Assembly (NCBI RefSeq): GCF_013415885.1
Contig: NZ_CP058910.1
Span: forward strand, 868,001-932,000
Source: Halosimplex rubrum
GTDB taxonomy: Archaea; Halobacteriota; Halobacteria; Halobacteriales; Haloarculaceae
DNA length: 64,000 nt
Direction: 5' to 3'
The notes below the pieces were generated by a model. It saw only the letters and a program-made list of their open reading frames with translations. It did no database searches and was not told the DNA's origin. How positions within the stretch are numbered: the stretch's first letter is position 1; each line of letters starts with the position of its first letter. Below, in pieces: positions 11,175-53,711 of this stretch. The translations under genes were made by a program, and so were the position numbers.

Positions 11175-12249
11175 GAGCGCCGGCGAATCGGAGGACGCGA
11201 GCGCGTCGGTTCCCGTCGACGAGCAAGCGCGCGAACTGCTGGTCGACGTGGTCGACACGCCGTCGGTGACCGGCGAGGAGGAAGAAGCGGCGAGAGTCCT
11301 CGTCGACTTCTTCGAGCGCCACGACCGCGAGGTGTGGGTCGACGACGTTGGCAACGTCCGCGCGCCGGCCGACGACAGCGTGCTCCTGACCTCCCATATC
11401 GACACCGTCCCGGGCGACATCCCGGTGCGCGTCGAGGAGAACGACGAGGGCGAGGAACAGCTCTGGGGCCGTGGAAGCGTCGACGCGAAGGGGCCGCTCT
11501 GTTCGATGGCCGTCGCGGCCGTCCGCACGGGCGCCTCGTTCGTCGGCGTCGTCGGCGAGGAGGTGGACTCGCGGGGTGCGCGCCACCTCGTCGACGAGCG
11601 CGACGCCGAGCCCGGGGCCGTCGTCAACGGCGAGCCCTCGGGCTGGGACGGCATCACGCTCGGCTACCGCGGGCTGCTCGCCGGCACCTACGTCGCCACC
11701 TCGGAGTCGGGTCACTCCTCGCGGCCGGAGAACAACGCCGTCCAGGACGCCATCGCCTGGTGGTCGGCGGTCGAAGAGGAGTTCGCCCACGACGACTGGG
11801 TGCCCGTTTTCGAGCGCGTGACGGCCAAGCCCATCAGCTTCGAGGGCGGGATCTCCGACGACGGCCTCTCGGTCGAGGCGACGGCGGACGTGCAGCTGCG
11901 AGTCCCGCCGGAGTACACGACCGAGGAGGTCCGCGAGATCGCCGACGGTCACCTCGAAAACGGGACGGTCCACTGGCACGACGCGGTCGAGCCGGTGATG
12001 ATGAACCCGCGGACAGCGGCGGCCCGAGCCTTCCGCGCGGCGGTCCGGCAGGTCGGCGGCGACCCCCGTCTGCTGCGCAAGACCGGCACAAGTGATATGA
12101 ACGTCTACGCACAGGAGTGGGACTGTCCGATGGTGACCTACGGACCCGGCGACTCCGACCTGGACCACGCGCCCGACGAGCACGTCTCGCTCGCCGAGTA
12201 CGACCGCGCCGTGGCCGTCCTGGAGACCGCGACGGAGCAACTACAATGA
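11167..12249 (+). CDS. lysK: [LysW]-ornithine/lysine hydrolase (LysK/ArgE, M20 peptidase)
   Basis: Releases ornithine from LysW and regenerates the carrier. The 360-residue M20 metallopeptidase has the metal and catalytic motifs SHIDTVPG (His77, Asp79), GRGSVDAKG (Asp106) and VVGEEVDSRGAR (Glu131, Glu132). An acidic N-terminal stretch of about 20 residues precedes the core. The start ATG at 11167 lies inside the end of argD, and the stop shares an ATGA with argF. Confidence 0.93.
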   Translation: MSESAGESEDASASVPVDEQARELLVDVVDTPSVTGEEEEAARVLVDFFERHDREVWVDDVGNVRAPADDSVLLTSHIDTVPGDIPVRVEENDEGEEQLWGRGSVDAKGPLCSMAVAAVRTGASFVGVVGEEVDSRGARHLVDERDAEPGAVVNGEPSGWDGITLGYRGLLAGTYVATSESGHSSRPENNAVQDAIAWWSAVEEEFAHDDWVPVFERVTAKPISFEGGISDDGLSVEATADVQLRVPPEYTTEEVREIADGHLENGTVHWHDAVEPVMMNPRTAAARAFRAAVRQVGGDPRLLRKTGTSDMNVYAQEWDCPMVTYGPGDSDLDHAPDEHVSLAEYDRAVAVLETATEQLQ

Positions 12250-13133
12250 ACTTCCTCGACGTCGACGACCTCACGACCGGCGAACTGGCGGCCGTCCTCG
12301 ACCGCGCGGCGGCGATCAAGACCGACTACCGCGAGGACGGCGCGACCGACCTGCTGGACGGTCAGACACTCGGGATGATCTTCGAGAAACCGTCGACGCG
12401 GACGCGCGTCTCCTTCGAGACCGGCATGACCCAGCTGGGCGGTCACGCCGTCTTCCTCGGTCCAGACGACATCGGGCTGCACGGGCGCGAACCCGTGAAG
12501 GACATCGCGCGGGCGCTCGGTCGCTACGTCGACTTCGTGATGGCCCGCGTGTACGACCACGCCGACGTGGTCGAACTCGGCGAGTACGCCGAGGTCCCCG
12601 TCATCAACGCGCTGACCGACGACGCCCACCCCTGCCAGACGCTCGCCGACCTGCTGACGATCCGCGAGCACTTCGACGACCCGACGGTCGCGTGGGTCGG
12701 CGACGGCAACAACGTCTGCCAGTCGTTCGTCCTCGGCGCGGCGATGTCCGGCCTAGACCTGACCGTCGCCACGCCCGAGGGGTACGGCGTCGACGAGGGC
12801 GTCCTCGAGCGCGCCGAGGGGCTCGGGACCGCACCGGCGACGACGACCGACCCCGAGGCCGCCATCGCCGACGCGGACGTGGTGTACACGGACGTGTGGG
12901 TCAGCATGGGTCAGGAGGACGAGCGCGCGGAGAAGCTGGCGGCCTTCGAGGGCTTTCAGATCACGCCCGAGTTGCTTGGCGACCGCGCGCTGATGCACTG
13001 TCTGCCCGCCCATCGCGGGGAGGAGGTCACCGACGCCGTCATCGAGAGCGACAACGCCATCGTCTGGGACCAGGCCGAGAACCGCCTGCACGCCCAGAAA
13101 GGGCTGCTGGCGTGGCTGGCCGAGCAGGAATAG
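12246..13133 (+). CDS. argF: Ornithine carbamoyltransferase
   Basis: Makes citrulline from ornithine and carbamoyl phosphate, linking the LysW branch to argG and argH. The 295-residue enzyme has the carbamoyl-phosphate site EKPSTRTR (47-54), HPCQ (128-131), the SMG loop (220-222) and HCLPAHRG (251-258). Its last 64 or so coding bases, together with the stop codon and 10 bases beyond, occur again 231 bp downstream after a structured element. The gene itself is full length and intact. It is the last gene of the operon. Confidence 0.96.
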   Translation: MNFLDVDDLTTGELAAVLDRAAAIKTDYREDGATDLLDGQTLGMIFEKPSTRTRVSFETGMTQLGGHAVFLGPDDIGLHGREPVKDIARALGRYVDFVMARVYDHADVVELGEYAEVPVINALTDDAHPCQTLADLLTIREHFDDPTVAWVGDGNNVCQSFVLGAAMSGLDLTVATPEGYGVDEGVLERAEGLGTAPATTTDPEAAIADADVVYTDVWVSMGQEDERAEKLAAFEGFQITPELLGDRALMHCLPAHRGEEVTDAVIESDNAIVWDQAENRLHAQKGLLAWLAEQE

Positions 13134-13297
13134 CGTCCGCGCGAGCGAAGCGAGGTGCGACGAAAGGAGCACCTCGTTGCGAACGGCGCGAAGCGCCGTG
13201 AGCGCAGTGAGCGCGTTTTTCGCCCACGTTTTTCTCCTCGGGTGTCCTCAGTCGCTTCGCTCCCTGCGAGCACCACTCGTCGAAAAACGTGGCTGCC
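13134..13297 (+). repeat. Structured intergenic element, copy 1 (after argF stop)
   Basis: Starts at the base after the argF stop. It holds a hairpin CGAGGTGC (13151-13158) / GCACCTCG (13169-13176), a series of AGCG-rich palindromes, and a long-range perfect inverted repeat CCACGTTTTTC (13224-13234) / GAAAAACGTGG (13282-13292). Five bases later the second copy of the argF 3' end begins. T-tracts at 13216-13220 and 13229-13233 could end transcription of the arginine operon. Homologous to the element after pheT. Confidence 0.75.
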
Positions 13298-13374
13298 GGA
13301 CCAGGCCGAGAACCGCCTGCACGCACAGAAAGGGCTGCTGGCGTGGCTGGCCGAGCAGGAATAGCGTCCGCGCG
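13298..13374 (+). repeat. Duplicate of the argF 3' end (77 bp, one mismatch)
   Basis: Bases 13298-13374 match 13067-13143 with one difference (GCACAG for GCCCAG). The copy begins at GGACCAGGCC, runs through the stop codon and ends ten bases beyond. It has no start of its own and is not a gene. The offset is 231 bp. Confidence 0.95.
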
Positions 13375-13556
13375 CCCGCGGCGCGCGGTTCACCGGGCCG
13401 AACGGAGTGAGGCCCGCTTTTTGCCCCACCTTTTTGCGCGGGTGGTCTCGGAGCGAGCGGAGTCGTTCGAACGAGCGCTACGCGCTCGGTCGTGATGACG
13501 AGAGAGCTTGGCTCTCTCGGAGTACGAGCGAGGATACCCGAGCGGAAAAAGGTGGG
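13375..13556 (+). repeat. Structured intergenic element, copy 2 (divergent)
   Basis: Follows the duplicated argF end and runs to the stop codon of the convergent M50-like gene. It contains GGGCC-AACGGAGTGA-GGCCC, the T-rich stretch CTTTTTGCCCCACCTTTTTG and a perfect inverted repeat CCCACCTTTTT (13425-13435) / AAAAAGGTGGG (13546-13556). Two smaller hairpins lie in the loop. The T-tract stem matches copy 1 in design but with C-G swapped for G-C. Confidence 0.7.
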
Positions 13557-14042
13557 TTAGGACCGGACGAGCCTGAGGAACTGTTTCCCGTCGCTGTCCA
13601 GTCCGGCGTAAGCGCCGCGGGAGTACGTCCGCGGCACGATGGTCTGGACGGCCCGGAAGAATTCGCTGTAGAAGATCGCCCGCAGGCAGAACGATATCGG
13701 GGTGGTACCGTCGCGGAACATGACCGGGCCCAGCGCCGCGACGATGAGGACCGTCATCGCCGGCCCGGCCGCGATGGAGGCCGTTCGGACGCGCTTCGAG
13801 TGCGTCCCCTCCCACTCGTGATACCCGTAGGCCACGAGCTTCCGGACGCCGTCGAACCCGACCGTTACCGTCAGCGGACCGAAGCGGGCCGTCCGCCCCG
13901 AGTCGCTCCCGACCGAGATGTGTGAACTGCCGCCCGCGAGCAGGACCGGCGCGGCGTGGGCGGCCTCGTGGAGGAAGAGCGCGACGACGATCCCGACGAC
14001 AGCGGCCGGGACGGCCAGCGCGTACAGTAGCACGTCGCTCAT
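13557..14042 (-). CDS. Small M50-like (site-2 protease type) membrane metalloprotease
   Basis: A 161-residue membrane protein. A first hydrophobic helix carries the zinc motif HEAAH (His25, Glu26, His29) and the C terminus has YAGLDSDGKQFLRLVRS, matching the second metal-ligand region (DG) of compact M50 peptidases. Such enzymes cut membrane-spanning substrates within the bilayer. The protein is short, with about four membrane segments. No substrate can be named. Its stop codon abuts the repeat element on its 3' side. Confidence 0.62.
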   Translation of the reverse strand: MSDVLLYALAVPAAVVGIVVALFLHEAAHAAPVLLAGGSSHISVGSDSGRTARFGPLTVTVGFDGVRKLVAYGYHEWEGTHSKRVRTASIAAGPAMTVLIVAALGPVMFRDGTTPISFCLRAIFYSEFFRAVQTIVPRTYSRGAYAGLDSDGKQFLRLVRS

Positions 14043-51577: not shown

Positions 51578-53409
51578 TGCCGACCGTCGAGATAGACCCC
51601 GACGAGCTCCGAGAGCTCACCGGCCACGACGAGAAGAGCGACGAACAGCTGCGCGAGGACATGTTCGCCCTCGGCCTCGAGTACGAGGGCGAGACCGACG
51701 ACGGCGAGTTCGAGCTGGAGTTCGCGCCCGACCGACTCGACCGCCTCTCGGTCGAGGGTGTCGCCCGCTCGCTGCGCTACCAGTACGGCGACGACCGGGG
51801 CGTCTACGTCCCGACGACCAACGACGCCGACTGGACCATCGAGGTCGACGCCGACGTGCCCGACGAGCGCCCGTACGTCACCGGCGCCGTCGTCCGCGGG
51901 CTGGACATGGACGAGGCCGCCCTCGAATCGCTCATCCAGCTGCAGGAGAAGCTCCACGCGACGATGGGCCGCCAGCGCGCCAAGGGCGCCATCGGCGTCC
52001 ACGACCTGACCATGCTGAAGGGCCAGGTCGGCGCTACCGGCGGCGAGGACACGCCCGAGGAGGAGGCCGACCCCCGCACCGAGGTCGCGCCCTCGGGCGG
52101 CAACTCCGTCCGCTACACCGGGATCGGCAAGCGCGAGGACCGCTTCGTCCCCCTGGAGGAGAACCACGAGATGACTCCCCAGGAGGTCTTGATGGCCCAC
52201 CACACCGCAAACAAGTTCTCCGACTTGGTCGAGGACTACGGGTCGATGCCGGCCATCTACGACGACGTCGGGATGTTCTCGTTCCCGCCGATCATCAACG
52301 GCAAGCGCACCGAGGTCACCACCGACTCCCGGGATCTGTTCGTCGAGATGACCGGCACCGACCAGTGGACGATCGACCACATGCTCAACATCGTCTGCTA
52401 CGCGCTCGACGCCCGCGGCGGCCGCGTCGAGGAGATCGAAATCGAGTACGCCGACGACGCAAGCGGCGACTACGCGGGCAACACGCTCGTCCGCCCGAAC
52501 TTCGAGACGAAGACCAAGACCGTCGACCACGCCGACATCGAGTCGATGCTCGGGATCGACCTCGACGGCGAGGAAGTCGTCGACCTGATGCAGCGCGCCG
52601 GGTTGGACGCCGCCGCGGACGACGACACGGAACGCGAGCCCGAGCGGCGGGAGACCCCGGACGCGAGCGCCGACGCGCTGTCCTACGAGGTGGAGATCCC
52701 GCCCTACCGCGTGGACGTGCTCCACCCCGTCGACGTGATCGACGACGTGGGCCGGGCCTTCGGGTTCAACGAACTCGACCCCCGCTACCCCGACGTGTCC
52801 ACCGTCGGCGGTCGCCACGACCGCTCCCGGCTGGAGCGGGCCGCCCGCGAGTCGCTCGTCGGGCTCGGCTTCGAGGACCTGCTCAATTTCCACCTCATCA
52901 GCGAGGCGGCCAACTACGAGCGACCGGGCGTCGAGCGCGGCAGCGACGCCCTCGGCGGCGGCGAACCCGCCGTCATCGGGGAACCCTACAGCGAGGACTA
53001 CGAGATCGTCCGCACCTGGGCGTTGCCCTCGATCATGCTCGTCCTCGAAAACAACACCCACCGGTCGTACCCCCAGCACCTCTCGGAGGTCGGGCTCGCC
53101 ATCGAGCAGGACGAGACCCAGCCGACGCTGGTCGACGAACGGCACACCGTCGCGGCCGCGCTCGCCCGCCACGACGCCTCCTACGAGGACGCCAAGGCCA
53201 GCCTCCAGGCGCTGTGTCGCGCCTTCGACGTCGAGCTGGCCACCCCGCCGACCGACCACCCGACGTTCATCTCCGGCCGCACCGCCGACATCGTCATCGA
53301 CGGCCGGAAGGTCGGCGTCATCGGCGAGGTCCACCCGAAGGTGCTCGTCGAGTACGATCTGGAGGTCCCCGTCGCGGCCTTCGAGTTCGAACTGGACGCG
53401 CTCCGGTAG
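51577..53409 (+). CDS. pheT: Phenylalanyl-tRNA synthetase beta subunit
   Basis: The 610-residue partner subunit has the B3/B4 tRNA-editing region (about 100-300, RAKGAIGVHDLTMLKG then MFSFPPIINGKRTEVT), B5 and the catalytic-like core. It edits mischarged Tyr-tRNA-Phe. The archaeal short form is expected. The final 55 or so bases are repeated 236 bp downstream behind a structured element, but this gene is complete. Confidence 0.96.
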   Translation: MPTVEIDPDELRELTGHDEKSDEQLREDMFALGLEYEGETDDGEFELEFAPDRLDRLSVEGVARSLRYQYGDDRGVYVPTTNDADWTIEVDADVPDERPYVTGAVVRGLDMDEAALESLIQLQEKLHATMGRQRAKGAIGVHDLTMLKGQVGATGGEDTPEEEADPRTEVAPSGGNSVRYTGIGKREDRFVPLEENHEMTPQEVLMAHHTANKFSDLVEDYGSMPAIYDDVGMFSFPPIINGKRTEVTTDSRDLFVEMTGTDQWTIDHMLNIVCYALDARGGRVEEIEIEYADDASGDYAGNTLVRPNFETKTKTVDHADIESMLGIDLDGEEVVDLMQRAGLDAAADDDTEREPERRETPDASADALSYEVEIPPYRVDVLHPVDVIDDVGRAFGFNELDPRYPDVSTVGGRHDRSRLERAARESLVGLGFEDLLNFHLISEAANYERPGVERGSDALGGGEPAVIGEPYSEDYEIVRTWALPSIMLVLENNTHRSYPQHLSEVGLAIEQDETQPTLVDERHTVAAALARHDASYEDAKASLQALCRAFDVELATPPTDHPTFISGRTADIVIDGRKVGVIGEVHPKVLVEYDLEVPVAAFEFELDALR

Positions 53410-53586
53410 CTCCGCGAGCGAACGGGGCGAGGTGCGACCGGAGGACGCACCTCGGTGTGAACGGGGAGCGAAGCGACCCGTGAACGGAGTGAGCGAGCGT
53501 CTTTTTGCCCCATCTTTTTGCGGTGAGCGGTGCCCGCAACCCGGCGAAGCCGGGTGAGGACATCCGAACCGGAAAAAGGTGGTCGC
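53410..53586 (+). repeat. Structured intergenic element, copy 3 (after pheT stop)
   Basis: Begins at the base after the pheT stop. It shares with the argF element the hairpin CGAGGTGC (53428-53435) / GCACCTCG (53447-53454), the AGCG palindromes, the T-rich stretch CTTTTTGCCCCATCTTTTTG and a distal stem CCATCTTTTT (53510-53519) / AAAAAGGTGG (53573-53582) with one G-T pair. The copied pheT end follows four bases later. Confidence 0.75.
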
Positions 53587-53641
53587 AGTACGACCTGGAG
53601 GTCCCCGTCGCGGCCTCCGAGTTCGAACTGGACGCGCTGCG
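53587..53641 (+). repeat. Duplicate of the pheT 3' end (55 bp, three mismatches)
   Basis: Matches 53351-53405 with three base differences. In the same frame it would encode the last residues of PheT with Phe to Ser at one site, then two extra residues and a stop at 53649-53651. It has no start and is not a gene. Confidence 0.92.
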
Positions 53642-53711
53642 AAGCGACTGACGGCGTATCCGTCCGTTCCCCCGAGCCGCTTTCTGTGGGCGATCCGCTA
53701 GCAGCCGACGG

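Follow-up and report, generated by a model that had tools for sequence, protein, structure and literature searches.

A family of hairpin elements at gene 3' ends in haloarchaea and the long direct repeats of host gene ends around them

How do copies of one structured element come to lie directly behind the stop codons of different genes? This question is raised by a 64,000-nucleotide stretch of the Halosimplex rubrum genome (here called the window), in which an earlier note, made from the sequence alone, had described three related elements at 13134-13297, 13375-13556, and 53410-53586. The three copies are present at these positions, and they fold far more stably than shuffled sequences (z scores of -4.7, -6.5, and -5.8, respectively). 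Copies 1 and 3 begin one base past a stop codon, that of argF (TAG, 13131-13133) and that of pheT (TAG, 53407-53409), and have in common the head hairpin CGAGGTGC/GCACCTCG, which is absent from copy 2. As described, long-range arms close all three copies. The main feature of these loci was overlooked in that description: a long direct repeat of the host gene 3' end surrounds copies 1 and 3.

The elements at argF and pheT

At both loci, the gene body runs into a gene end (G), after which come the element and then the gene end a second time (G'). The features of the window are as follows.

12246-13133, +, argF (ornithine carbamoyltransferase), host gene, with Pfam domains OTCace_N and OTCace
13067-13143, +, argF 3' end, left copy of a 77-bp direct repeat (98.7% identity), comprising the last 22 codons, the stop, and 10 nt beyond
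13144-13292, +, element 1, with head hairpins, a T5C tract (13216-13221), and the core
13224-13292, +, core hairpin 1, CCACGTTTTT...AAAAACGTGG
13293-13297, +, junction scar CTGCC, common to argF insertions of other genera
13298-13374, +, argF 3' end, right copy of the direct repeat, untranslated
13375-13555, +, element 2, with its core at 13426-13555 and extra hairpins within the core loop
53351-53405, +, pheT 3' end, left copy of a 55-bp direct repeat (pheT identified by Pfam)
53406-53582, +, element 3, which provides the stop TAG (53407-53409), head hairpins, a T5 tract (53502-53506), and the core
53510-53582, +, core hairpin 3, CCATCTTTTT...AAAAAGGTGG
53583-53586, +, junction scar TCGC, common to pheT insertions of other species
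53587-53651, +, native pheT end, displaced, consisting of the right repeat copy (53587-53641), the native last codons, and the stop TGA (53649-53651); relatives without the element end pheT in this way

Element 2 comes after G' of argF and reaches to within 1 nt of the stop of a convergent gene on its right (13557-14042, minus strand). Two of the cores have peculiarities of their own. Core 1 has its inner hairpin, between the T5 and A5 arms, in the reverse of the usual orientation, as judged against orthologous copies from other Halosimplex species. Core 2, as well as several other copies of the family, carries extra hairpins in the loop, as if hairpins insert into hairpins.

Architecture, fold, and distribution of the family

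A full copy reads AGCATCCGCG-hp1-GGTTCACCG-hp2-CTTTTTC-CCAYG-T5-hp3-A5-GRTGG, and two types can be told apart by the right end, GGTGG or GATGG. The element is short and noncoding, with arms CCAYG/GRTGG, and its left end, AGCATCC, falls outside these arms. A pattern search of the window's genome returned 25 exact cores (CCAYN-T5-N(25-55)-A5-N-RTGG) versus none for the reversed pattern; therefore, the copies are not due to chance. Related Halosimplex genomes held up to about 50 such pattern matches when both strands were counted. The named matches came nearly all from Halobacteria, mostly from Haloarcula, Halorientalis, Halosimplex, Halomicrobium, and Halovenus, and the family occurs mainly in Haloarculaceae. 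The recurrence in related haloarchaea for which the earlier note had suggested a search was thus found. In Rfam, there was no gathering match at the elements, and the best subthreshold matches look like chance. We also considered whether the element simply contains a general haloarchaeal terminator motif. This was rejected: of 102 T5CRCCCAY sites in 0.99 Mb, 95 belong to the element.

The fold was then examined across 164 distinct cores. In the inner stem, pairing far exceeded that with shuffled partners at position 2 (0.68 versus 0.34) and at position 5 (0.72 versus 0.37), and CG, GC, AT, and TA pairs were all used; the fourth arm pair was C-G in 135 cores and T-A in 23. These values come from an anchored pairing test, which was used for covariation; RNAalifold on a MAFFT alignment gave a weak signal because stem lengths vary. 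The covariation anticipated for a larger alignment is therefore present, in the inner stem and the fourth arm pair, and the fold is conserved. The G-C to C-G swap that the earlier note had read as compensatory fared less well: the fifth arm pair is a G.G mismatch in 153 of the 164 cores, so the swap is weak evidence for independent compensation. Copies 1 (CCACG/CGTGG) and 2 (CCACC/GGTGG) look like two possible repairs of this conserved mismatch.

Some individual copies are worth recording. At three loci (L035, L039, and L041), identical or near-identical GATGG copies have CTGTACTGA, or a variant of it, on their right side; this sequence also borders several further full-length elements on their left. 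An argF-linked element (L194) contains a G/C run that looks like an assembly or sequencing fault.

Gene-end duplication, junctions, and placement

Flanking direct repeats were found at 49 of 184 cores but at none of 1020 positions drawn at random from the same loci; they were 35 to 141 bp long (median, 69 bp). All 49 repeat-flanked cores were of the GGTGG type, versus 0 of the 32 GATGG cores in the same set, a split between types that is not absolute since one GATGG copy with a gene-end repeat was found later (L244). Two-thirds of the GGTGG cores had no duplication. The right repeat copy started within 10 nt of the GGTGG right end in 47 of the 49 cases, while the left copy ended at variable distances. 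In about 23 of 49 cases by our count, GGTGG was followed by three native bases, after which an extra pyrimidine (at times two bases) interrupted the native sequence. The extra pyrimidine, about four bases past GGTGG, recurs in displaced gene ends. Reading frame was considered as the cause of this scar and was discarded, a by-eye check of a few genes having revealed no consistent phase. At the native insertion point, 45 sites, not all of them independent, gave a weak consensus with A or T at +1 (77%, versus 34% in the background) and A at +7 (64% versus 19%). Differences between G and G' favored third codon positions (84 of 133 overall), a bias that is probably underestimated because the count included some wrong reading frames.

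The duplicated stretch was not always the end of a protein gene. At L069, the element duplicates what is apparently the 3' part of a tRNA gene, and at L088, CAT closes the repeated segment, which resembles a gene start on the other strand.

Placement relative to genes was assessed with gene calls from a simple home-made predictor. By these calls, the neighboring gene reads into the left side in 93 of the 117 GGTGG cores located outside genes, which extends to the family the nonrandom position after stop codons first noticed in the window. Where the right-hand gene was convergent, its stop lay within 10 nt of the element's right end in 24 of 59 cases. Almost every repeat-flanked GGTGG core has TTTTTC at positions -8 to -3 on its left. 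In Haloferax, T5C is a proven terminator with 95% termination (PMC7237163). The hairpin and T5C tract carried by the insert would therefore form a putative terminator, at which the host transcript probably ends in vivo. This lends some support to the terminator guess of the earlier note. The elements resemble the T5C terminators of haloarchaea (PMC7237163) in having the tract past the stop codon, where it follows a hairpin. They differ from ordinary T-tracts in being dispersed repeats with a covarying hairpin downstream.

Insertion history, rival explanations, and known systems

To follow the history of the insertions, the same sites were compared in seven Halosimplex species. The pheT site was filled in three species and empty in four. 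The same numbers applied to etfA, where each of the three insertions had its own breakpoint; a locus labeled bis was filled in three, and a locus labeled glyox carried the element in all seven. At filled sites, the DNA beyond G' corresponded by homology to what lies downstream at empty sites. Moreover, full-length copies with 100% identity, 164 bp in one case and 185 bp in the other, were present at unrelated places in the window's genome. Given the empty sites, the independent insertions with different breakpoints, and the identical dispersed copies, we conclude that the family moves, and the guess of a mobile element made from the window has gained support. The identical copies at unrelated places belong to the GATGG type, which is mostly without long duplication; for the GGTGG type, it is only the comparison of sites that points to recent movement. 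In Halosimplex, G and G' were equally far from native ends (0.873 each, versus 0.917 for the gene body; 51 pairs), as expected for in-place duplication. At glyox, G and G' had species-specific variants in common in several species, which suggests gene conversion.

The explanation that we favor, with moderate confidence, is a nonautonomous hairpin-ended mobile element of about 120 to 190 bp that inserts near gene 3' ends and leaves the host gene intact. The right end of the insert, GGTGG or GATGG, would be constant, and insertion of the GGTGG type would commonly duplicate 35 to 141 bp of the target. Because the target is duplicated, the gene would retain an intact 3' end on the left, with the second copy beyond the element. 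We infer that an enzyme provided in trans nicks the two strands at distant points and that filling of the gap then gives the duplication. The two gene-end copies could later be homogenized by gene conversion, deleted, or swapped for foreign ends by recombination. Several observations weigh against a mobile element: no transposase was found (see below), two-thirds of the GGTGG cores are unduplicated, and the spread in duplication length is far beyond what transposases are known to allow. The third-codon bias is a further one, as it is unpredicted by simple decay of an untranslated copy.

This bias appears to fit an exchange of gene ends better than neutral decay of G', and it belongs to the evidence for a different account, in which a cassette made up of the gene 3' end, the untranslated region, and the core moves between species and displaces the native end downstream. 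The cassette would enter a homologous gene end by homologous recombination, through a Campbell-like single crossover or a short double crossover. The clearest case is in another genus (g33), where L241 carries the element and L243 does not. The two gene bodies share about 95% of their bases, but over roughly the last 90 nt before the stop, identity falls to 70 to 87%; the displaced end at L241 matches the empty site L243 at 75 of 81 positions. Judged from these identities, the gene-attached end of L241 is foreign and the displaced end native. A foreign gene-attached end in one genus therefore suggests that whole gene-end units are also imported. In some argF comparisons, the last 66 to 72 nt change faster than the gene body. 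The same genes, breakpoints, and scars also recur across genera. However, the equal distance of both copies from native ends in Halosimplex speaks against such a cassette, which in addition leaves unaccounted for its first formation at each gene, the fixed right end, and the independent breakpoints within one gene. We therefore regard it as an unlikely general explanation; import of gene-end units by recombination may nevertheless run alongside insertion of a mobile element.

Less probable still is that the hairpins are host terminators only, selected at gene ends, with duplications arising when replication slips or switches template at the hairpin. Hairpins do promote slippage, and the placement at gene 3' ends, the T5C tracts, and the strong covariation would all suit host terminators. 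They would not account for 100%-identical copies of 164 to 185 bp at unrelated loci, for empty sites in congeners, or for the sequence preference at the breakpoint. Retrotransposition of a hairpin RNA via target-primed reverse transcription, which the LINE-like combination of a fixed 3' end, a variable left end, and a long variable duplication brings to mind, is very improbable, since reverse transcriptase domains (PF00078) were found in 0 of 30 genomes, including all eight Halosimplex genomes, while control genomes gave matches.

The search for an enzyme that could mobilize the elements yielded no transposase and no autonomous relative, and there was no cargo-bearing autonomous form among 123 cores in 8-kb loci. 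An IS200/IS605 route was dismissed: the presence of TnpA does not track the copy number of the element, and element ends were found at 0 of 30 TnpB loci in five genomes. Y1_Tnp was absent from one of the genomes richest in elements (G006; 49 pattern matches on both strands). Guide-RNA homing, with the element as scaffold and the displaced end as guide, was dropped because the extra pyrimidine about 4 nt past GGTGG would disrupt the guide and because no nuclease partner was found.

Among known systems, the elements seem to work most like SMR-A and SMR-B of Haloquadratum walsbyi, which are about 80 to 110 bp long and present in tens of copies, with no transposase and an enigmatic mobilization (PMC3119063). 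Both are short and haloarchaeal, and neither has a transposase that was found. SMRs have inverted terminal repeats unrelated to known transposons; the hairpin elements have the CCAYG/GRTGG arms, with the left end outside them. However, SMRs make no target duplication and favor other mobile elements, whereas the hairpin elements are located at gene 3' ends and often have a 35- to 141-bp duplication (49 of 184 cores). PATEs and nonautonomous IS200/IS605 elements (PMC3119063) are similarly short and noncoding, with near-terminal palindromes and conserved left and right ends, but PATEs make no target duplication, and neither the TnpB loci nor the copy-rich genome described above fits them. Fungal mitochondrial mORF elements of Allomyces and Glomus (PMC3630166) also supply a replacement 3' end and displace the native end downstream, and their divergence is mostly synonymous, as at L241; they belong to a different domain of life, however, and encode a homing endonuclease. 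The haloarchaeal inserts, at roughly 45 to 300 bp, encode nothing and have no room for one. REP sequences, which go with RAYT, are repeated palindromes enriched after genes. The hairpin elements share this feature, but they show no link to a Y1 transposase and have a long gene-end duplication. The target duplications left by known DNA transposons are short and of fixed length, as those of a MITE of a DDE transposon would be, in contrast to the variable 35 to 141 bp observed here.

We found no published description, in the open literature, of this arrangement of gene-end duplication and hairpin. The elements may, as a tentative proposal that we hold at somewhat less than even confidence, represent a kind of prokaryotic mobile element whose insertion, in coding DNA near the 3' end, spares the gene through a long, variable target duplication, with neither a reverse transcriptase nor any transposase identified so far. 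If variable gene-end duplications of 35 to 141 bp are indeed made without reverse transcriptase, the insertion chemistry would be one undescribed in prokaryotes. The layout also shows, in nature, how core genes such as argF, pheT, and gltA can take up an insert without harm, and it offers a system for studying the spread of terminators, gene conversion of nearby repeats, and the exchange of gene ends between archaeal species.

A related arrangement was noticed at two argF loci, L206 and L208. There, argF is separated from a displaced copy of its 3' end by a gene for a VapC-like PIN-domain protein, accompanied by a likely antitoxin that was recognized by eye (at L206, +150 to +1110 past the argF stop). 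The displaced end measures about 120 bp and is identical at 122 of 123 positions in two species. The layout is that of a gene-end duplication in a cargo-bearing version.
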